Assembly: GCA_903822595.1 (NCBI GenBank)
Contig: CAIJPS010000097.1
Coordinates: forward strand, 1-35,060
Reading direction: 5' to 3'
Length of the DNA stretch: 35,060 nucleotides
DNA from: an uncultured Chlorobiaceae bacterium
GTDB lineage: Bacteria; Bacteroidota; Chlorobiia; Chlorobiales; Chlorobiaceae
Shown here: positions 24,594-35,060 of the stretch, piece by piece
How the letters are laid out: each line of letters begins with the position of its first letter
How positions within the stretch are numbered: the first letter of the stretch is position 1
Program-made: the position numbers and the translations under genes
Notes under the pieces: generated by a model
Seen by the model: only the letters and a program-made list of their open reading frames with translations
The model's database searches: none
What the model was told of the DNA's origin: nothing

Positions 24594-27389
24594 ATGCCGG
24601 ATAAAAACACTCTAAACCAGACGCCCGAGCAGCAAGCTCGTGACGCCATCGACCGCCAGCTCACGGCGGCGGGTTGGGCTGTTCAGGAGAAGAGTCAGAT
24701 CAACTGGCACGTTTCACCCGGCATTGCGGTGCGCCATTACCCGATGCAGGATGGCTCAGAGTCCGACTACGTCCTCTTTGTTGATCGCAAGCCAGTCGGG
24801 ATCATCGAAGCAAAACGGGAGGAGGAGGGGCAGCGCCTCACCTCCGTAGAGGATCAATCTTCAGGATATGCAACAAGCAAACTGAAGCACCTCCAGAACG
24901 CCCCGCATCCCTTTGTCTACGAAAGCACCGGCGTGTTGACCCACTTTACCGACTACCGGGACCCAAAACCCCGCTCACGGCCGGTGTTCACCTTTCACCG
25001 CCCGGAAACCTTCCGCGAGTGGCTTGGCAAGGAGCAGAGCCTCAGAGCACGCCTGCACTCCATTCCCGAGCTGAACCAACGTGGTCTGCGCGAGTGCCAG
25101 AGCATTGCCATCAACAACCTCGAAGGCTCCTTCCGTGACGCACGCCCGAGAGCGCTCATCCAGATGGCCACAGGTTCAGGCAAAACCTTTGCCGCCATCA
25201 CCTCGATCTACCGCCTGCTCAAACACGGCGACGCCAAACGGATACTCTTTCTGGTCGATACCCGCAACCTCGGCGAACAGGCAGAACAGGAGTTCCGGGC
25301 CTACACGCCCAATGACGACAACCGCAAGTTTACCGAACTCTAAAACGTGCAGCGGCTCCAGTCGAGCGCCATCGCCAGCGACAGCCATGTCTGCATCACC
25401 ACCATCCAGCGCCTCTACTCCATTCTGAAAGGCGAGGAGCTTGACGCATCGCTTGAAGAGGATAACCCTGCGGAAAAAAGCTGGCAACCAAAAGAGCCGG
25501 TACCGGTAGCCTACAGCGCAAAGGTTCCACCAGAATTTTTCGACTTCATCGTCATCGACGAGTGCCACCGCTCCATCTACAACCTCTGGCAGCAGGTGCT
25601 CGACTACTTCGACGCCTTTCTCATCGGTCTGACCGCAACGCCCGACAAGCGCACCTTCGGCTTTTTCCAGGAAAACATCGTCAGCGAATACAGCCATGAA
25701 CGCGCCGTAGCCGATGGCGTCAATGTGGGTTACAGCGTCTATCTCATCGAGACCGAGATCACCAATAACGGCGCAGAAATCAAGGCGAGAGAGTTTATCG
25801 ACAAACGAGAAAAGCTCTCCCGCCGCAAACGATGGGAGCAGCTCGACGAGGATGTCACCTATACGCCCACCCAGCTCGACCGTGACGTGGTCAATCCAAG
25901 CCAGATCCGCACCATCATCCGCACCTTTCGCGAGATAGTGCCGATCTTGTTCCCCGGACGGAGCGAGGTGCCCAAAACCCTTGTTTTCGCTAAAACCGAC
26001 AGTCATGCCGAAGATATCATCAAAATTATCCGCGAAGAGTTCGGCGAAGGCAACGCATTCTGCAAAAAAATCACCTGCAAGTCAGACGAAGATCCCAAAT
26101 CACTGCTCGCCCGCTTTCGCAACGAGTACAACCCCAGAATAGCCGTCACGGTTGACATGATCGCCACCGGCACCGACGTCAAGCCGCTCGAATGCCTGCT
26201 CTTCATGCGCGACGTCAAAAGCAGCAACTATTTCGAGCAGATGATAGGCAGGGGTACACGCACCCTCTGTTTTGACGACCTCAAAAAGGTGACCCCATCA
26301 GTCACCTCCGCCAAAACCCACTTTGTCATAGTCGATGCCATCGGCGTCACCAGATCGCTGAAAACCGACAGCCGCCCCCTTGAGCGCAAGCCCACAATTT
26401 CACTGAAGGAGCTGCTTGAAGCCATCACCTTCGGCGCAGAGGAGGAAGATCATTTCATCTCCCTTGCCAGCCGCCTTGCCCGGCTCGACCGGCAGATCAC
26501 CGAAGAGGAACGGGCTACCTTTATCGAAAAAGCGGGCGGCAAAAGCATCAACCAGGTTGTGCGCGAACTGTTCGATGCCTGGAACCCCGACGCTATCAGC
26601 CTGAAAGCACAATCGTTACAGGGAGCGCTTGTAGAAGAGGAGAGCGATAACCCGTCAGCCGAAACACATCTGTTGCAGGAAGAGGCACAGCGAGCGCTCC
26701 TGAACGAAGCACGCTCCACCTTCAACGGGCCGCTGAACGAGTTTATCGACACCGTCCGCCGCGTGCATGAACAGATTATCGACACCATCAACCTCGACCA
26801 GGTCACCAAAAGCGAATGGGCCACCGAAAGTGCCAGCAAGGCAACGGAACTGATCGGGGAGTTCAAGGCATATCTTGAAGCGCACAAAGATGAAATCACC
26901 GCGCTCACCATCTTCTACAACCAGCCCTTTCAGCATCGCACGGTCACCTACCGGATGATCCGCGAGCTGTTTGAGCGCCTCAAAGCCGACAAACCGGCTC
27001 TGGCCCCGATGCGCATCTGGCACGCCTACGAGCAACTCGAACAGGTCAATGGCACCAGCCCCAAAAACGAGCTTATCGCCCTTGTCTCGCTCATCCGCCG
27101 CGTCATCGGCATCGACACGGTACTGACCCTTTACGACAAAACCGTTGACACCAACTTCAAAAAATGGATCTTCAACAAGCACTCCGGCGCAGGCGAAAAG
27201 TTCACCGAAGAGCAGATGCAGTGGCTGCGCATGATCAAGGAGCACATTGCCGCCAGCATTCATATTGAGCCTGACGATCTCGACCTCACCCCCTTCGACG
27301 CGCATGGCGGTCGGGGCAAAATGTGGCAGCTTTTCGGGGAAAGAATGGGGACGATTATTGATGAACTTAACGAGGTGCTAACCGCTTGA
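24594..27389 (+). pseudogene. hsdR: Type I restriction enzyme R subunit, broken by an in-frame TAA
   Basis: 932 codons of one HsdR frame, interrupted by TAA at 25341-25343 (codon 250). The stop sits in the segment read as EL-stop-NVQRLQ; relatives typically read EL-Y-NVQRL, so a Tyr codon differing at its last base is the likely ancestor. The upstream part holds the nuclease motif (D58, E72-x-K74 in IIEAKRE) and Walker A ATGSGKT at 192-198. The downstream part holds DECH (codons 322-325), the rest of the motor, and an EcoEI-type C-terminal domain (LTPFDAHGGRGKMWQLFG). A GTG directly after the stop could in theory restart translation, but the nuclease and motif I would be in a separate peptide. 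Probably inactive unless the stop is suppressed or is a sequencing error. Confidence 0.85.
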
Positions 27390-27593
27390 TTGATAGAAAG
27401 ATAGTACTGACCACCTTCTCTATCTACGACAATTATGAGATGGTTATTGAAACGCAATAAGTGAGAAAAACTCTTTATATTTTCTACGACTTTGGGCTAA
27501 CGATGAAAAGGAAAAATTGCCGAATAAACGCAACTCATGGGATTCGTTATGAATCTGTTTCCTGAGAGCAATGTGCTTAACGATTCAATAAAA

Positions 27594-27599
27594 AAGGAG
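27594..27599 (+). promoter_or_regulatory. Shine-Dalgarno of the antitoxin gene
   Basis: AAGGAG lies 8 nt before ATG 27608 and fixes the start of the 59-residue antitoxin. Confidence 0.6.
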
Positions 27600-27607
27600 A
27601 TGCTACT

Positions 27608-27787
27608 ATGGAAAATCTGAAGCAGGAGGCAATCCGGGTAATTTCAGCTTTACCGGAGAGTGCCACTATTGAGGAGATTATGTATGAGCTGTACGTCGTT
27701 GATAAAATCAAAAAAGGCAAAGAGGCGGTTGAACGTGGAGAGTCACAATCAACAGAAGAGTTGAAAAAAGAGATGCTGTCATGGTAA
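27608..27787 (+). CDS. Small antitoxin of a ParE/RelE-type module
   Basis: 59 residues, MENLKQEAIRVI at the start, with ATIEEIMYELYVVDKIKKG in the middle and a C-terminus ending KKEMLSW. It matches the general pattern of short acidic-basic antitoxins encoded just before ParE-type toxins. Its strong Shine-Dalgarno (27594-27599) and the 7-bp overlap with the toxin start (27781) show it is the first gene of a coupled pair. The family name is not certain, and binding to its toxin is inferred from gene order. A GATTC-GTTAT-GAATC palindrome about 50 bp upstream might be an autoregulatory site. Confidence 0.75.
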   Translation: MENLKQEAIRVISALPESATIEEIMYELYVVDKIKKGKEAVERGESQSTEELKKEMLSW

Positions 27788-28092
27788 AATGGTCAGAGCC
27801 TGCAAAAACTGATTTACGGCACATTCACGATTACATTGCAAATAATTCCAAGTTTTATGCAGAGAAAGTTGCTCTTGAGATTGTTAAAAAGTCAGAGCAA
27901 ATAAGCGCTTTTCCTGAGGCGGGCAGAATTGTCCCTGAAATTGGAGATCCCGCAATCAGAGAATTTTTTATCTATTCCTACAGACTTATTTACGAAATTT
28001 TTCCCGCAACTATTGAAATTCTTGCACTGGTTCACGCCAAACGAAATTTCATCAAAGATGTGGTGAGTGAACAGCAGCACCCAAAAAATTAA
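27781..28092 (+). CDS. ParE/RelE-superfamily toxin
   Basis: 103-residue toxin-like protein. The pattern VKWSEPAKTDLRHIHDYIA, a mid-segment with FPEAGRIVPEI, and YRLIYEIFPATIEILALVHAKRNF at the end are typical ParE features; family members inhibit DNA gyrase or cleave mRNA. It overlaps the antitoxin gene by 7 bp. The pair lies between broken hsdR and a second hsdR relic, so it was probably placed in the restriction operon as an addiction or maintenance module. Which target it has cannot be told. Confidence 0.85.
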   Translation: MVKWSEPAKTDLRHIHDYIANNSKFYAEKVALEIVKKSEQISAFPEAGRIVPEIGDPAIREFFIYSYRLIYEIFPATIEILALVHAKRNFIKDVVSEQQHPKN

Positions 28093-28109
28093 GCCCCCCA
28101 ACTCTTTTT

Positions 28110-28347
28110 ATGCCACACAACGACTCTCTGAACCAGACTCCCAAGCATAACGCTCGCGACATCATCGATCGGCAGCTTACGGCAGGATGGGCGGTTCAGA
28201 AAAAGAGCGCAATCAACTGGCATGTTTCAGGAGGCATAGCGGTGACGCTCCTTCGACGAGCATGGCGGCCGGTGCAAAATGTGGCAGCTTTTCGGGGAGA
28301 GAATGGATGCGATTATTGATGAACTTAACGAGGTACTAACGGGATGA
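28110..28347 (+). pseudogene. Relic of a second hsdR with its middle deleted
   Basis: The first 46 codons (MPHNDSLNQTPKHNARDI, then INWHVSGGIAV) correspond to the N-terminus of the hsdR at 24594. From about 28245 the sequence jumps, in another frame, to the HsdR C-terminus (FDEHGGRCKMWQLFGERM, then IIDELNEVLTG) and ends with TGA at 28345-28347. About 850 codons are missing. The N-terminal part is clearly diverged from the upstream hsdR while the last 98 bp differ at only about ten positions. The stop overlaps the ATG of tcmP (ATGA at 28344-28347), so this lost hsdR was probably the original first gene of the operon. Confidence 0.85.
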
Positions 28348-29231
28348 GTGATCAAAACATTTTACATGTACAGGAACCATCTGAACATTGGGGTGGCCCT
28401 TGGACGGAGAAAAAGCTTAATGCCTTCAGCAAGTATGTTGATGCGTACCTAACCATTTTACAGGCTGACCCTTATTGGCAAACCATTTACTTTGATGGAT
28501 TTGCCGGAAGCGGGTCGAGAAAATATCCAAAAACATCATTATACAATCAACTTCAGATCACCCTTGAAGAGGAGGAAGGTTACAAAGGCGCCGCTGAAAG
28601 GGTTGTCCGACTTGAAAAAAGCTTTGATTACTATTATTTCGTTGACAATCAAGACAGCATTGAAAAGTTGCGGGCCAAATTAACGTCATTACCTGAAGCC
28701 GAAGGAAAGAAACTCTTGTTCATGGATGGCGATTGTAATTTGGAGCTAAAAAAATTAGCCACTACCATGAGAACCAATAAATATGCAGCATTGGTCTTGC
28801 TTGATCCTTTCGGCATGCAGATTAACTGGAATGCTATTGCTGGCCTGAAAGATACCCGCTCGGATATCTGGATTCTCCTCCCAACCGGAGTTATTGTGAA
28901 TCGGTTACTTGACAAAGCGGGCGAGCTTAAGAGCATCGAACTGCTTGAATCGCTCTTCGGCTTATCTGAAGAAATAATCCGGAATGAGTTTTATAAAAAA
29001 GAACAACAGTTAACTTTGTTCGGAGAAAACGAGATTATAAAAAAAATCAGCAATCCGATTCACCATATTGCCAGCCTCTATATCCGACAGTTAAAAACTA
29101 TATGGCCTCACGTCACTGATGAACCACTGATTCTGCATAACAGCCGGAATACTCCGATTTATCATTTTATTTTTGCCTCAAATAAGCCCGTTGCTGGAAA
29201 AATCGCAAAGGACATCATTAAAAGAATGTAA
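28344..29231 (+). CDS. tcmP: Three-Cys-motif partner protein TcmP
   Basis: Protein of 295 residues with a methyltransferase-like layout: FDGFAGSGS at 50-58 in the position of an AdoMet-binding motif, an acidic end of strand 2 (FVDNQ, about 100-104), and LLDPFGMQINW at 153-163 resembling a DPPF-type catalytic motif. The family is named for its habit of neighbouring a protein with three conserved cysteines, and that partner starts 3 bp after its stop. Its ATG overlaps the TGA of the hsdR relic by ATGA. It may modify nucleic acid or assist its partner; no activity has been established to my knowledge. Confidence 0.85.
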   Translation: MSDQNILHVQEPSEHWGGPWTEKKLNAFSKYVDAYLTILQADPYWQTIYFDGFAGSGSRKYPKTSLYNQLQITLEEEEGYKGAAERVVRLEKSFDYYYFVDNQDSIEKLRAKLTSLPEAEGKKLLFMDGDCNLELKKLATTMRTNKYAALVLLDPFGMQINWNAIAGLKDTRSDIWILLPTGVIVNRLLDKAGELKSIELLESLFGLSEEIIRNEFYKKEQQLTLFGENEIIKKISNPIHHIASLYIRQLKTIWPHVTDEPLILHNSRNTPIYHFIFASNKPVAGKIAKDIIKRM

Positions 29232-29233
29232 CA

Positions 29234-29965
29234 ATGGCACAATCGCACATAGAATGGACGGAAATGACCTGGAACCCGGTAACGGGATGTGACAAGGTTT
29301 CTGACGGGTGCAGGTTCTGCTACGCAGAGGCATTCGCAAAGCGTCTGCAAGGAATGGGAGTTGAGAAGTATCGCAACGGTTTTGAGCTTACCCTGCATCC
29401 CGAAACGCTTCAGGAGCCATTCAGATGGAAAAAGCCGAGAGTCGTTTTTGTCAACTCAATGGGGGACTTGTTTCACAAGGATATTCCACTCGACTATATC
29501 CGGCAGGTATTCAACGTCATGAAGCAGAATCCGCATCATGTGTTTCAGGTTCTGACCAAGCGGGCTGATGTTTTGAAATATTATGACAGTGAAGGATGGC
29601 TGGATTGGTCGCACAATATCTGGATGGGTGTATCGGTGGAAAATCAGCAGGCCATGCCGCGAATTGACAGGCTTCGGGAAACCGGTGCACGGGTAAAATT
29701 TTTATCCTGTGAGCCTCTGCTTGGATCATTGCCGGAGCTGAACTTGCAAGGGATAGACTGGGTAATTGTGGGTGGTGAAAGCGGCAGAAATGCCCGCCCA
29801 ATGAAGCCAGAATGGGTTCAGGAGATTCGTGAACAATGCCTTGCAGCAAACGTACCGTTTTTCTTCAAGCAATGGGGCGGATTCAACAAAAAGAAAGCTG
29901 GGCGTACACTCGACGGGTTAATATGGGATCAGAAGCCGGTAATGCCGGAGTTGTTTGTGGGTTAA
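29234..29965 (+). CDS. DUF5131 (phage Gp37/Gp68-like) three-Cys-motif protein
   Basis: Protein of 243 residues with the conserved three-cysteine motif CDKVSDGCRFCY (C19, C26, C29), a CX6CX2C arrangement reminiscent of, but not identical to, radical SAM clusters. FVNSMGDLFHKDIP, VFQVLTKRAD, GVSVENQQAM, FLSCEPLLGS and VIVGGESG follow in an order compatible with a TIM-barrel-like fold. It begins 3 bp after tcmP. Related proteins are common in phages and mobile elements. The biochemical function is unknown; an iron-sulfur enzyme is a guess. Confidence 0.85.
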   Translation: MAQSHIEWTEMTWNPVTGCDKVSDGCRFCYAEAFAKRLQGMGVEKYRNGFELTLHPETLQEPFRWKKPRVVFVNSMGDLFHKDIPLDYIRQVFNVMKQNPHHVFQVLTKRADVLKYYDSEGWLDWSHNIWMGVSVENQQAMPRIDRLRETGARVKFLSCEPLLGSLPELNLQGIDWVIVGGESGRNARPMKPEWVQEIREQCLAANVPFFFKQWGGFNKKKAGRTLDGLIWDQKPVMPELFVG

Positions 29966-29989: not shown

Positions 29990-31429
29990 ATGAGTGTATA
30001 TAGATCGGATTGGAAAGTTGAACGGCTTGGGGCTTTTGCCCTGCATGAAAAAGGGACGAAACCAAAACGATCACAAAAAAACGCGGATGATGTTTTTACT
30101 TGCCCATACGTGGACATTCAGGCTTTTGAAAAAGGTATTGTAAAGGAATACACCGACGGACACAAGTGTGTGCTGTGTGAAAAGAATGATTTTCTCATGG
30201 TTTGGGATGGTTCCCGTTCAGGGTATGTCGGCAAAGCAATAAAAGGCGCTTTGGGTAGTACTCTGATGAAGATCTCGTTTCCGGGAATTGAGACTGATTA
30301 CGCTTACTATTTTTTGCAATCGAAATACCTTGAAATCAACACAAGGGCAAAAGGAACTGGAACTCCTCATGTTGATCCCGGAATACTCTGGAATTATCAA
30401 TTTGCAATTCCGCCACTCCCCGAACAGCGAGCCATTATTGCAAAACTGGAGCAGCTTTTCAGCGAACTTGATAACGGGATTGCCTGTCTGAAAAAGGCGC
30501 AGGAGCAACTCAAGGTCTATCGTCAAGCCGTTCTTAAACAAGCCTTTGAAGGTGAACTCACCAAAGTATGGCGTGAGCAGCAACCCAGCCTACCAACAGC
30601 GCAGGAGTTGCTTGAAACCATCAAGACCGAACGAGCGCAAGCGGCAAAACTTCAGGGCAAAAAACTCAAGCCGGTTATTCCGCTTACACAGACTGAGCTT
30701 GTCGCATTACCTATACTTCCGAAAGAATGGAAATGGGTAAGAATCAGTGATATTGCTCAGAAAATTCAGATTGGCCCATTTGGAAGCCAATTGCATTCTG
30801 ATGATTACACGGAAAATGGCATTCCGCTGATAAATCCAAAGCACATCAAAAATCAAAAGCTCTCTCCAAGAGTTAGGATTTCGATAGACAAAGCAAATTC
30901 TTTGCCTCAATATTTTCTTGAAGAAAATGATATTATTGTCGGCAGAAGAGGCGAAATGGGAAGAACGGCACCTGTTTTAAAAATACATGCCGGGTGGTTC
31001 TGTGGAACTGGCAGCCTGTATATTCGATTGGGACAATCCTTTATTTCTAAATTATATAGCCTGATTCTGAGTGAACGACGTATTGTTGATTATCTCGAAA
31101 AAAAGAGTCGAGGAACGACAATGGCTAATCTGAATTCCCAGATTATTAATTCATTACCAATACAGCTCATCTCCCCACAAGAGCAATCCCAAATCGTGGA
31201 GGAAATCGAAACACGCCTCTCGGTTTGCGACAACATCGAATCCACCATCCGTGAATCACTTGAAAAAGCGGAAGCACTGCGGCAAAGCATTCTGAAAAAA
31301 GCTTTTGAAGGCAAATTGCTCAGCGAGGAAGAGCTTCAGATAACCCGCAACGCCCCAGACTGGGAACCTGCCGAAAAGCTGCTTGAGCGCATCAGGGCTG
31401 AAAAACGAACTGCAAGGAACAAGCATTAA
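29990..31429 (+). CDS. hsdS: Type I restriction-modification specificity subunit
   Basis: DNA-recognition subunit of 479 residues with two target-recognition domains (about 1-140 and 245-395), each followed by a conserved helical spacer (PPLPEQRAIIAKLEQLFSELD and SPQEQSQIVEEIETRLSVCD), and the repeated signature QAFEGELTKVW / KAFEGKLLSEEE that links half-sites. This symmetric arrangement is what determines a bipartite recognition site. The reading frame is intact. It begins 24 bp after the DUF5131 gene and ends 11 bp before hsdM. Its recognition sequence cannot be read from the protein. Confidence 0.93.
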   Translation: MSVYRSDWKVERLGAFALHEKGTKPKRSQKNADDVFTCPYVDIQAFEKGIVKEYTDGHKCVLCEKNDFLMVWDGSRSGYVGKAIKGALGSTLMKISFPGIETDYAYYFLQSKYLEINTRAKGTGTPHVDPGILWNYQFAIPPLPEQRAIIAKLEQLFSELDNGIACLKKAQEQLKVYRQAVLKQAFEGELTKVWREQQPSLPTAQELLETIKTERAQAAKLQGKKLKPVIPLTQTELVALPILPKEWKWVRISDIAQKIQIGPFGSQLHSDDYTENGIPLINPKHIKNQKLSPRVRISIDKANSLPQYFLEENDIIVGRRGEMGRTAPVLKIHAGWFCGTGSLYIRLGQSFISKLYSLILSERRIVDYLEKKSRGTTMANLNSQIINSLPIQLISPQEQSQIVEEIETRLSVCDNIESTIRESLEKAEALRQSILKKAFEGKLLSEEELQITRNAPDWEPAEKLLERIRAEKRTARNKH

Positions 31430-31440
31430 CTGTTGTACTT

Positions 31441-32925
31441 ATGACCAATACCCCGTCAGCCATTATTTCGAAAGTCTGGTCGTTCTGCCACGTCCTGCGC
31501 GACAGTGGCGTGAGCTATGGCGATTATCTCGAACAGTTGACCTTTCTCATCTTTCTGAAAATGGCCGATGAGTACAGCAAGCCGCCTTACAGCCGCACCA
31601 TCGACATCCCGCAGGAGTACACCTGGCAAAAGCTCAAGGAGAAGCGGGGCGCTGAGCTTGAAGTGCTCTACACCGGGTTGCTCCGCGACCTTGGCAAAAA
31701 GCCAGGGATGCTCGGGCAGATATTCCTGAAAGCGCAGAACAAGATTGCCGATCCGGCGATGCTCTACAAAGTGGTTGACATGATCGACAAAGAGAGCTGG
31801 GTGATGATGGGCGCTGATGTCAAGGGCGAAATTTACGAAGGGCTGCTTGAAAAGAATGCCGAAGATACCAAAAGCGGGGCCGGTCAGTACTTCACCCCCC
31901 GCGCCCTGATTGAGGTGATGGTGGAGTGCATCCGCCCGGAGCCGATGAAGAGCATCGTTGACCCGGCATGTGGCACCGGTGGTTTTTTCCTGAAGGCTTA
32001 TGATTTTATCACCAACCGTTACAGCCTCGACCGGAGCCAGAAGGAGTTTCTGAAGCATCGCACCTTCGGCGGCAATGAAATTGTGCCCGGCACCCGCAGG
32101 CTCTGCCTGATGAACATGTTTCTGCACAACATCGGCGAACTCGACGGCATTGCCGCCGTCTCATCCGCTGACGCGCTGCTTGCCGACAGTGGTGCCCGGT
32201 ACGATTACGTGCTCACCAATCCCCCTTTCGGCAAAAAGAGCAGCATGACCTTCACCAACGACGACGAGGAGCAGGAGAAAGAGAGCCTTGTCTACAACCG
32301 GCAGGATTTCTGGGCCATAACATCCAACAAGCAGCTCAACTTTTTGCAGCACATCCACACCATCCTGAAAGTTCACGGCCAGGCTGCCGTGGTGCTTCCC
32401 GATAACGTGCTTTTTGAAGGCGGCGCTGGAGAGCTTGTCCGAAAAAAGCTGCTCGAAACGACCGAACTGCACACCATTCTGAGGCTGCCGACCGGCATCT
32501 TTTATGCGCAGGGCGTCAAAGCCAACGTCCTCTTTTTCGACGTTATGCCTGCCCACAAAGATCCCTGGACACGCGAAGTGTGGTTCTACGACTACCGCAC
32601 CAACGTGCACCACACCCTGAAAAAGAGCCCGCTGAAGGCATCTGACCTGCAAGAGTTTGTCGAGTGCTACAACCCTGAAAACCGCCATAAACGCAAGGAG
32701 AGCTTCGCGCCCGAAACCCCCGAAGGTCGCTGGCGGAAGTATACCTGCGAAGAGATTGTCGCCCGCGACAAAACCAATCTCGACATCTTCTGGCTGAAGG
32801 ATAAAAGCCTTGCAGATCTTGATAATCTTCCTGATCCGGATCTACTGGCTGGGGAAATCATCGAAAACCTTGAGGCCGGACTTGCAAGCTTTCAGGAGAT
32901 TCTTGGGGTGCTGAACAGGGGGTGA
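31441..32925 (+). CDS. hsdM: Type I restriction-modification DNA methyltransferase subunit
   Basis: N6-adenine methyltransferase of 494 residues. The N-terminal HsdM_N domain (SKVWSFCHVLRDSGVSYGDYL) is followed by SGAGQYFTPRALI, the AdoMet motif I DPACGTGGFF at 174-183, and the catalytic NPPF at 260-263. All are intact, so methylation should persist even though hsdR is broken. It is the last gene of the hsd operon; the LRR protein begins 37 bp later. The unusual order is R-(TA)-relic-tcmP-DUF5131-S-M. Confidence 0.95.
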   Translation: MTNTPSAIISKVWSFCHVLRDSGVSYGDYLEQLTFLIFLKMADEYSKPPYSRTIDIPQEYTWQKLKEKRGAELEVLYTGLLRDLGKKPGMLGQIFLKAQNKIADPAMLYKVVDMIDKESWVMMGADVKGEIYEGLLEKNAEDTKSGAGQYFTPRALIEVMVECIRPEPMKSIVDPACGTGGFFLKAYDFITNRYSLDRSQKEFLKHRTFGGNEIVPGTRRLCLMNMFLHNIGELDGIAAVSSADALLADSGARYDYVLTNPPFGKKSSMTFTNDDEEQEKESLVYNRQDFWAITSNKQLNFLQHIHTILKVHGQAAVVLPDNVLFEGGAGELVRKKLLETTELHTILRLPTGIFYAQGVKANVLFFDVMPAHKDPWTREVWFYDYRTNVHHTLKKSPLKASDLQEFVECYNPENRHKRKESFAPETPEGRWRKYTCEEIVARDKTNLDIFWLKDKSLADLDNLPDPDLLAGEIIENLEAGLASFQEILGVLNRG

Positions 32926-32962
32926 ACAATGAACACATTCACCATAAAAGCTATTGATTACC

Positions 32963-34891
32963 ATGAATGATTTTGATTACCTGAGCCAGATTGAAAAAGA
33001 ACTTGGTATCAAACTGATAAAGCTTAATAAGCTAGATAAAAAACAAATTGAAGGTGATGGAGCAAATACATATTACTACCGCATTGAACGCGTCAGAATC
33101 ATCAGTTACACACAACACATTGGATACGTACTTGATGAAAACAACTGTGTAACTGGGATTTATTTTTATAATTGCGACATAAAAACGATACAACGAATTA
33201 TAGAGCCTCTTACATGCCTGTCAAACCTGTTAGAACTCGACATTTCAAATAATCACATCAATGACCTGGCTCCACTATCAGAGCTGAAAGGCCTTACTAC
33301 GCTCATTATTTCTGATAATCAAATCACTGATCTTGGCCCTCTTACAAAACTAACCCGCCTCTCATTCCTAAATGTTTTGAACAATCAAGTCTATGACCTT
33401 GATCCACTTTCCGACCTGATATGTCTTTCCTCACTCATTGTTTCAAACAATCAAATAACTGATCTTAGCCCGATTGCAAAACTAACTCGCCTCTCATTCC
33501 TAAATATTGAAAACAACAAAATCACCGATATTTCACCCTTAATAAATATAAAACGCCTTGTATTCCTAAATTTTTCATTTAATCGAGTTTTTGATCTTAC
33601 TCCTCTTTCAAAGCACACAGACCTTTCTACACTTATTATTTCTGATAATCAAATTACTGATCTTGGAGCGCTTGAACAACTAACTCACCTTTCATTCTTA
33701 AATGTTAGTAATAATCAAATCCATAATCTTAAACCACTTGCACAACTGATAAACCTTGTCAAACTCATTGTTTCGCATAATAATATCAATGATCTTAAAC
33801 CACTTTCGAAGTTAACAAACTTAACGCTTCTTAATCTTTTGAGCAATCAAGTTATTGATCTTGATCCGCTTGCTAATCTAATAAACCTCACAACACTCTC
33901 TATTTCAGACAATCAAATTATTGATCTTGCTCCACTAGCAGAACTACCATTGCTAATCTTTCTTGCTGCATGGGGAAACCAAATCACTGATATCGCACCT
34001 ATTGCTCATCTAACAAATTTATCGACTCTTCATTTGTCTAAAAATCCAATTAAAACGCTGCCCCAATGGATTACTAATTTTAAGATGGACATAGAGTGGG
34101 AAGATATTAGAAACAATAATTGTATAACATTCTTCGATAATCCACTGGAAACACCTCCTCCTGAAATTGTAAAACTGGGAACAAAGGCGGTCAGAAACTA
34201 TTTCATACAGTTAGAAGAACAGGGTCGTGATTATCTTTTTGAGGCAAAGTTATTGATTGTAGGAGAAGCAGGTGCAGGCAAAACCTCTCTGGCGAGGAAG
34301 CTTGAAAACCGTTATTCGCCTTTGCCAAATGATAAGGATACTACACGAGGTATTGATGTAAAACCTATCTTTTCCCCTCTTAGACCAGAAGATTTTCCGA
34401 ATCTTGAAGCAAGAAAACTTGATGAAAAAAAGTTCCGGATGAATGTCTGGGATTTTGGAGGGCAAGAGATATACAAGGCGACCCATCGTTTTTTTCTCTC
34501 AAACCGGTCGTTGTATGTGCTGGTCGTGGATAACCGAAGGGAAGATGTTGATTTCAACTATTGGCTGCATGTGATCGAAATGTTTTCAGGAAACAGCCCG
34601 ATCTTGATTGTCTCGAATGAAAAACAGCAACGCAAACGGGACATCGATGTAGATGCCTTGCGACAGCGCTTCACAAACATCAAAGAAATCTATGATGTGG
34701 ATTTTGCCGAGCCTGATAACCGTTTCGATAAACTGAAAATAGCCATCCAGTATCAGATAAAGGGTTTGCCGCATACCGGCATCTCCGTACCTTCACGATG
34801 GACAAGCGTTAGAAATGCCCTTGAAAAGAAACGCAAAAAGACTATATCCCTGCAGGAGTACCTTATACTTTGTAACACTACTGTCCGGTTA
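32963..34891 (+). CDS. LRR-Roc (ROCO-like) GTPase, truncated by an IS
   Basis: Leucine-rich-repeat protein with a Ras-of-complex GTPase domain. Thirteen 22-residue SDS22/internalin-type repeats span residues 87-372. The Roc domain follows: P-loop GEAGAGKTS at 434-442, DxxGQ motif in WDFGGQE, and NEKQQ where NKxD is expected. The reading frame ends inside the IS at 34892-34894, with the last five residues (TTVRL) encoded by the IS, so the COR and any C-terminal effector or dimerisation domain are missing. ATG 32963 is preferred to TTG 32954. Intact ROCO proteins dimerise and signal through nucleotide-dependent switching; the fragment is probably not fully functional. Confidence 0.8.
33221..34078 (+). 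repeat. Thirteen 66-bp leucine-rich repeats, partly duplicated in 330-bp blocks
   Basis: Tandem 66-bp units encode LxxLxISxNxIxDLxPL. Units 2-3 (from about 33300) and 7-8 (from about 33630) are closely similar at a spacing of 330 bp, five units, pointing to block duplication on top of single-repeat growth. Confidence 0.75.
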
Positions 34892-35060
34892 TAAGTTAAA
34901 TAAATCTAACTGGTTAGAAGTATAGGTGTTCTCAATTGTGCCAGCAGAATTCGTAACTAATTGATTTATATCGACTTTCTCAAAAACACTGACACTCAGG
35001 ATTTGTAGAAAAGTGTAGAGAGATATATCTAAATTCATGCGTTTTTTTATTAATGCAATA
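34876..35060 (-). mobile_element. 3' end of an IS4-like insertion sequence, right copy (partial)
   Basis: On the minus strand the frame reads IALIKKTHEFRYIS, then YTFLQILSVSVFEK, and ends with NQLDLFNL and TAA (34891-34889). It is the same transposase C-terminus as the left copy. The first 138 bp inward (34876-35013) match positions 1-138 in inverted orientation with one silent difference. The insertion interrupts the LRR-Roc gene. The remaining transposase and the other end lie beyond the window. Confidence 0.8.

Follow-up and report, generated by a model that had tools for sequence, protein, structure and literature searches.

The window, by which we mean the whole 35,060-nt stretch of DNA that was analysed, carries a type I R-M locus on the forward strand (Table 1). 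It begins with a long hsdR gene, followed by a ParE-type toxin-antitoxin (TA) module, a short hsdR relic, tcmP, a DUF5131 gene, hsdS, and hsdM. The accessory ORFs between hsdR and hsdS are parDE, tcmP, and DUF5131, and relatives carry other cargo in this region. Directly 3' of hsdM, a leucine-rich-repeat protein with a Roc GTPase domain is encoded at 32954-34894, and its relatives were found near the same locus in three other genomes (G014, G036, and G045). The analysed genome (G000) groups with Chlorobium/Chlorobiaceae, and the relatives with which it was compared include Chlorobium sp. L227-S-6D and several Chlorobiaceae MAGs. All compared genomes may be MAGs, and the relatives identified by name are.

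Table 1 Features of the type I R-M locus in the analysed window.
Feature	Position	Strand	Remarks
Upstream hsdR, class I	24594..27389	+	931 codons; ResIII, HSDR_N, EcoEI_R_C; complete but for TAA at codon 250
Nonsense codon TAA in upstream hsdR	25341..25343	+	Codon 250; TAC in 11/11 other aligned hsdR genes retaining the position
Antitoxin-like ORF (parD position)	27608..27787	+	No Pfam match; 93-95% aa in G033 and G047
ParE-type toxin	27781..28092	+	PF05016, E 2.5e-17
Relic hsdR 5' piece, class II	28110..28248	+	Aligns with hsdR nt 1-142; one codon (3 nt) lost near relic nt 71
Deletion junction	28239..28265	+	~2.55 kb gone, out of frame; G000 and G033 only among 86 family genomes
Relic hsdR 3' piece	28250..28347	+	Aligns with hsdR nt 2699-2796; frame +1 relative to 5' piece; TGA 28345-28347
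Stop codon ending the ORF from the relic ATG	28317..28319	+	69 codons
tcmP (three-Cys-motif partner)	28344..29231	+	TIGR04474, E 2.8e-37; start overlaps relic stop
DUF5131 gene	29234..29965	+	PF07505
hsdS	29990..31429	+	
hsdM	31441..32925	+	

Alignment of the relic (28110-28347) showed an hsdR gene of which approximately the first 142 and the last 98 nt are left, in two pieces joined head to tail near 28245. The missing part (hsdR nt ~143-2698, ~91% of the coding sequence) comprises the helicase/nuclease core, and the pieces are joined out of frame. The ORF starting at 28110 ends 24 nt before the start of tcmP, and the HsdR-like C-terminus (SFDEHGGRCKMWQLFGERMDAIIDELNEVLTG) is encoded in frame +1, with its TGA overlapping the tcmP ATG as ATGA. 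A search of the genome with the two relic pieces returned the upstream hsdR as the sole relative (E 8e-32 and 4e-20), and the 3' ends of the relic and the upstream gene were 86% identical over 111 nt. These E values and an identical junction in an independently assembled genome indicate that the homology is not due to chance. The relic resembles type I R-M hsdR genes (EcoEI_R_C/HSDR_N families) in that both of its ends are colinear with HsdR and it is linked to hsdS and hsdM. However, unlike an intact type I hsdR, it has lost most of its coding sequence and its reading frame, and it makes no HsdR. We therefore regard the relic as a deletion pseudogene of an hsdR gene that once stood directly before tcmP, with a probability of about 0.8. 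A reading made from the sequence alone (the sequence-only reading) had already described a hollowed-out hsdR whose stop overlaps the start of tcmP, and the alignment bore out both points. It had missed the frame shift at the join, the lost codon, and the TAA in the upstream hsdR.

In the independently assembled genome, G033, which belongs to a second Chlorobium species, parE and tcmP likewise flank this relic; the G033 copy has the same junction, the same 3-nt loss, and an overall identity of 96% (97.1% in the 5' piece and 94.9% in the 3' piece, a difference of ~3-5%). When 86 family genomes were scanned with a 27-nt junction pattern allowing up to two mismatches, only G000 and G033 matched, and a scan of viral contigs for the junction gave no match. 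The sole other copy of the short sequence thus shares the out-of-frame junction, and a complete, conserved gene of this kind was not found among the relatives. The 5' pieces of the two relics differ by only four substitutions, three nonsynonymous and one synonymous.

Comparison within the genus supported an older gene order of hsdR-tcmP-DUF5131-hsdS-hsdM, as the sequence-only reading had proposed from the window. Intact hsdR genes overlap tcmP by ATGA in G039 and G027, and the same overlap occurs in G046, where the contig ends after the last ~400 bp of hsdR and leaves the intactness of the whole gene unproven. The hsdR of G051 is reduced to its last ~113-126 nt, which stand before tcmP, again with the ATGA overlap. 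We found no report in the literature on TcmP/DUF5131 in R-M loci.

Fragments of hsdR were common across the genus, and in at least 15 genomes hsdR or its remnants were preceded by rng and accompanied by differing cargo. Beside rng, G045 has an intact hsdR, an internal piece, and a 3' piece, and at least one 3' piece is present in each of G057, G061, G062, and G056. Two hsdR pieces are fused to a tcmP remnant in G049. In G047 (L070, G047:C31, 817-861), hsdR nt 1-45 are fused directly to codon 75 of DUF5131 behind the same ParE module, which is an independent deletion that took hsdR, tcmP, and part of DUF5131. In G027 (L042), the intact hsdR with the tcmP overlap is preceded by a second hsdR 5' fragment at 1579-1945 (hsdR nt 1-403, 86%). 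Over all fragments, some of which share ancestry, the 3' tip was kept in ~12, the 5' tip in ~7, and mid-gene sequence in ~2. Hollowed hsdR genes in G002, G052, and G061 have their junctions at imperfect direct repeats of 7-15 nt, which points to slipped-strand deletion; the hsdR of G002 (L059, 5653-7213) is in four pieces, separated by three such internal deletions. A three-gene cassette (ORFs of 300, 82, and 573 aa in G045) was found in G045 (L054), G057 (L055), and G062 (L056), always followed directly by an hsdR 3' piece beginning at nt 2644-2648 and then by different genes. Read by eye, the large ORF of the cassette starts like a DUF2326-type ABC protein.

The frequent survival of hsdR 3' ends bears on two other readings of the relic. 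Cargo lies between hsdR 3' ends in G000, G045, G056, G057, and G062, and the intervening block might be an element that entered the locus at the end of hsdR and rebuilt that end as an att-like duplication. However, no integrase-sized ORF was present in 27390-28110, the repeats are imperfect (86% identity in G000) and vary in length, and the G000 remnant also includes the hsdR 5' end, so that we give this explanation hardly any credence. Also conceivable, though improbable, is a function for the short ORF, either as a small gene in its own right or as a leader peptide that couples translation into tcmP. A further 1-nt loss in the G033 relic opens a frame of 78 codons whose stop overlaps the tcmP start; the middle ~22 codons of this frame are in a non-hsdR frame. 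An hsdR remnant ending in an ATGA overlap with the start of a tcmP-family gene is found in G051, G045, and G056 as well as in G000 and G033, and G000, G033, and G046 do not differ in the last 37 nt. However, the G000 frame stops short of tcmP, nonsynonymous changes outnumber the synonymous one among the few substitutions in the 5' piece, and no member occurs beyond the two relics. A functional small gene was rejected, as its conservation stops at two genomes. Among intact hsdR genes, the last 37 nt are the more variable part (8.1 vs 5.3 pairwise differences per column), and all nine differences between the relic and G046 lie upstream of them. This identity would fit retention of the tcmP start region, and a short exchanged tract could have the same effect. 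The tcmP of G036 has no detected hsdR remnant before it, so that the family can do without the remnant.

Two further alternatives derive the relic from the upstream hsdR, or let the two exchange sequence. Full hsdR genes fell into class I (G000, G045, and G047) and class II (G033, G014, G064, G038, G043, and G052), between which identity is mostly ~77-85% over the first 600 nt and mostly ~85-90% over the last ~550 nt. The 5' piece of the relic was class II at all 13 diagnostic sites, and the upstream hsdR was class I at nine of these sites and class II at two. In-place tandem duplication of hsdR in an ancestor, with decay of the downstream copy, would account for two hsdR sequences in direct orientation flanking the TA module, with 3' ends as alike as noted above. 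However, the 5' piece is only 75% identical to the upstream gene, as opposed to 88-90% to the class II hsdR of other species (~90% for G033), and the nearest relatives of the upstream hsdR are those of G045 and G047 (92-95%). The allele classes contradict such a duplication, which we consider quite unlikely and which would regain weight only through a later replacement of the upstream hsdR. The sequence-only reading had noticed that the 5' end of the relic is more diverged from the upstream hsdR than the 3' end, which is correct (75% vs 88-91%), and had taken this as a hint of gene conversion or recombination-driven replacement, which is not supported. Conversion between these two sequences would explain the closeness of the 3' ends and two private 3' sites common to both (alignment positions 59 and 95), but one of these sites is also present in G046, and two sites are too few to argue from. 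The asymmetry is the ordinary difference between class I and class II, because the classes differ likewise along the gene, with identities that generally rise from ~77-80% at the 5' end to ~85-90% towards the 3' end. The 3' piece, in which there is a single class-diagnostic site, is closest to G046 (91-92%) and not to the upstream hsdR. In the tree of 5' ends, the class II clade including the relic had a support of 95 and the relic pair 93, with weak support inside class II; in the tree of 3' ends, the relic pair had 98 and the relics with G046 71. With the allele-class profiles, trees, and diagnostic sites, gene conversion is unneeded, and we judge it very unlikely.

The deletion pseudogene of a class II gene thus stands behind an hsdR of another class, and the earlier suggestion that the upstream hsdR is a later addition was upheld by the class sites, the trees, and the divergence from its nearest relatives. 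The upstream gene had a dS of 0.18 to G045 and 0.28 to G047, whereas rng had 0.61 and 0.62 for the same pairs, and this lower divergence fits horizontal acquisition. As to the TA module, which had likewise been taken for a later addition, parD is directly followed by the class II hsdR in G052 and by a fragment of the hsdR 5' end in G057. On this evidence, the intact precursor of the relic may already have had the module in front of it, and the class I hsdR may have been added further upstream.

The TAA codon in the upstream hsdR was unique to this assembly among the aligned hsdR genes that retain the position, and a GTG occurs 3 nt after it. The gene is otherwise constrained (dN 0.020 and dS 0.183 between G000 and G045), and therefore the TAA is either very recent or an assembly error. 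If it is real, neither hsdR of the locus is intact. Judged from the sequence, the locus is probably methylation-only for now in G000, unless the TAA is an assembly error, and restriction may be off in this genome.

Divergence between G000 and G033 varied strongly along the locus. The flanking core genes had dS values of 0.96 (dapD) and 0.87 (rng), in contrast to 0.56 for hsdR, 0.26 for parE, 0.07 for tcmP, 0.39 for DUF5131, 0.32 for hsdS, and 0.35 for hsdM. Between G000 and G047, parE had a dS of 0.008 vs 0.62 for rng. The low dS of the locus genes relative to the core genes therefore indicates that gene-sized tracts have been exchanged between species. Once the deletion had occurred, the relic and tcmP probably passed from one species to another, and they would have done so as one tract, because their divergence is about one-tenth of that of the flanking core genes and the junction is identical. 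Three species (G000, G033, and G046) have a nearly identical tcmP sequence from about 28600 to 29270 despite their strongly differing flanks, which looks like a very recent single-gene exchange.

Taken together, these results suggest the following course of events. A deletion of ~2.55 kb brought hsdR nt ~142 and ~2699 together; it presumably occurred only once, in a class II gene. Its mechanism was probably of the spontaneous short-repeat type, as in the sister relics of G002, G052, and G061, from which it is borrowed; no clean short direct repeat was found at the G000/G033 junction, and short repeats were not retained as the cause there. The relic and tcmP would then have crossed species as one recombination tract. 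A class I hsdR, probably acquired horizontally, now occupies the upstream place next to rng, with the ParE-type TA module between it and the relic. With its surviving 3' end, the relic still provides the region in which tcmP starts, and this overlap may explain why the end was retained. More tentatively, and with the odds rather against it, the hsdR 3' end could be kept both as the translation start of tcmP-family genes and as a homologous joint for swapping downstream cargo cassettes between Chlorobium species. If so, hsdR fossils would be by-products of a locus that swaps modules through conserved gene ends.

We found no report in the literature on this hsdR locus in Chlorobium. The locus provides a well-resolved case of type I turnover, in which one hsdR was gutted and its remnant probably travelled with tcmP. 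Another hsdR allele took the upstream place and now itself has a stop codon. The locus repeatedly loses and regains hsdR, often without loss of hsdS and hsdM. Which pieces move independently can be read from the gradient of divergence from gene to gene, and the transfer of a shared fossil, together with the genus-wide record of hsdR loss, would make a clear small study. The relic itself is an ordinary pseudogene of limited surprise, and the locus is of the hypervariable hsd kind already known, with a traceable hsdR fossil.

Campylobacter jejuni has a hypervariable type I hsd locus in which hsdR and hsdS are separated by accessory genes, with R-linked (rlo) and M-linked (mlo) ORFs (Miller et al. 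2005, as described in PMC5183652). The Chlorobium locus is similar in being a type I system whose chromosomal site is fixed, in having such accessory genes, and in being exchanged within the genus. However, its accessory genes are different (tcmP/DUF5131, TA modules, and a DUF2326-like cassette), several hsdR remnants remain, and the flanking gene is rng. The locus also resembles defence islands and hotspots in which TA modules lie inside R-M loci, as TA and defence cargo turn over at one site; unlike in those islands, the gene-sized tracts in Chlorobium can be dated against the flanking core genes.
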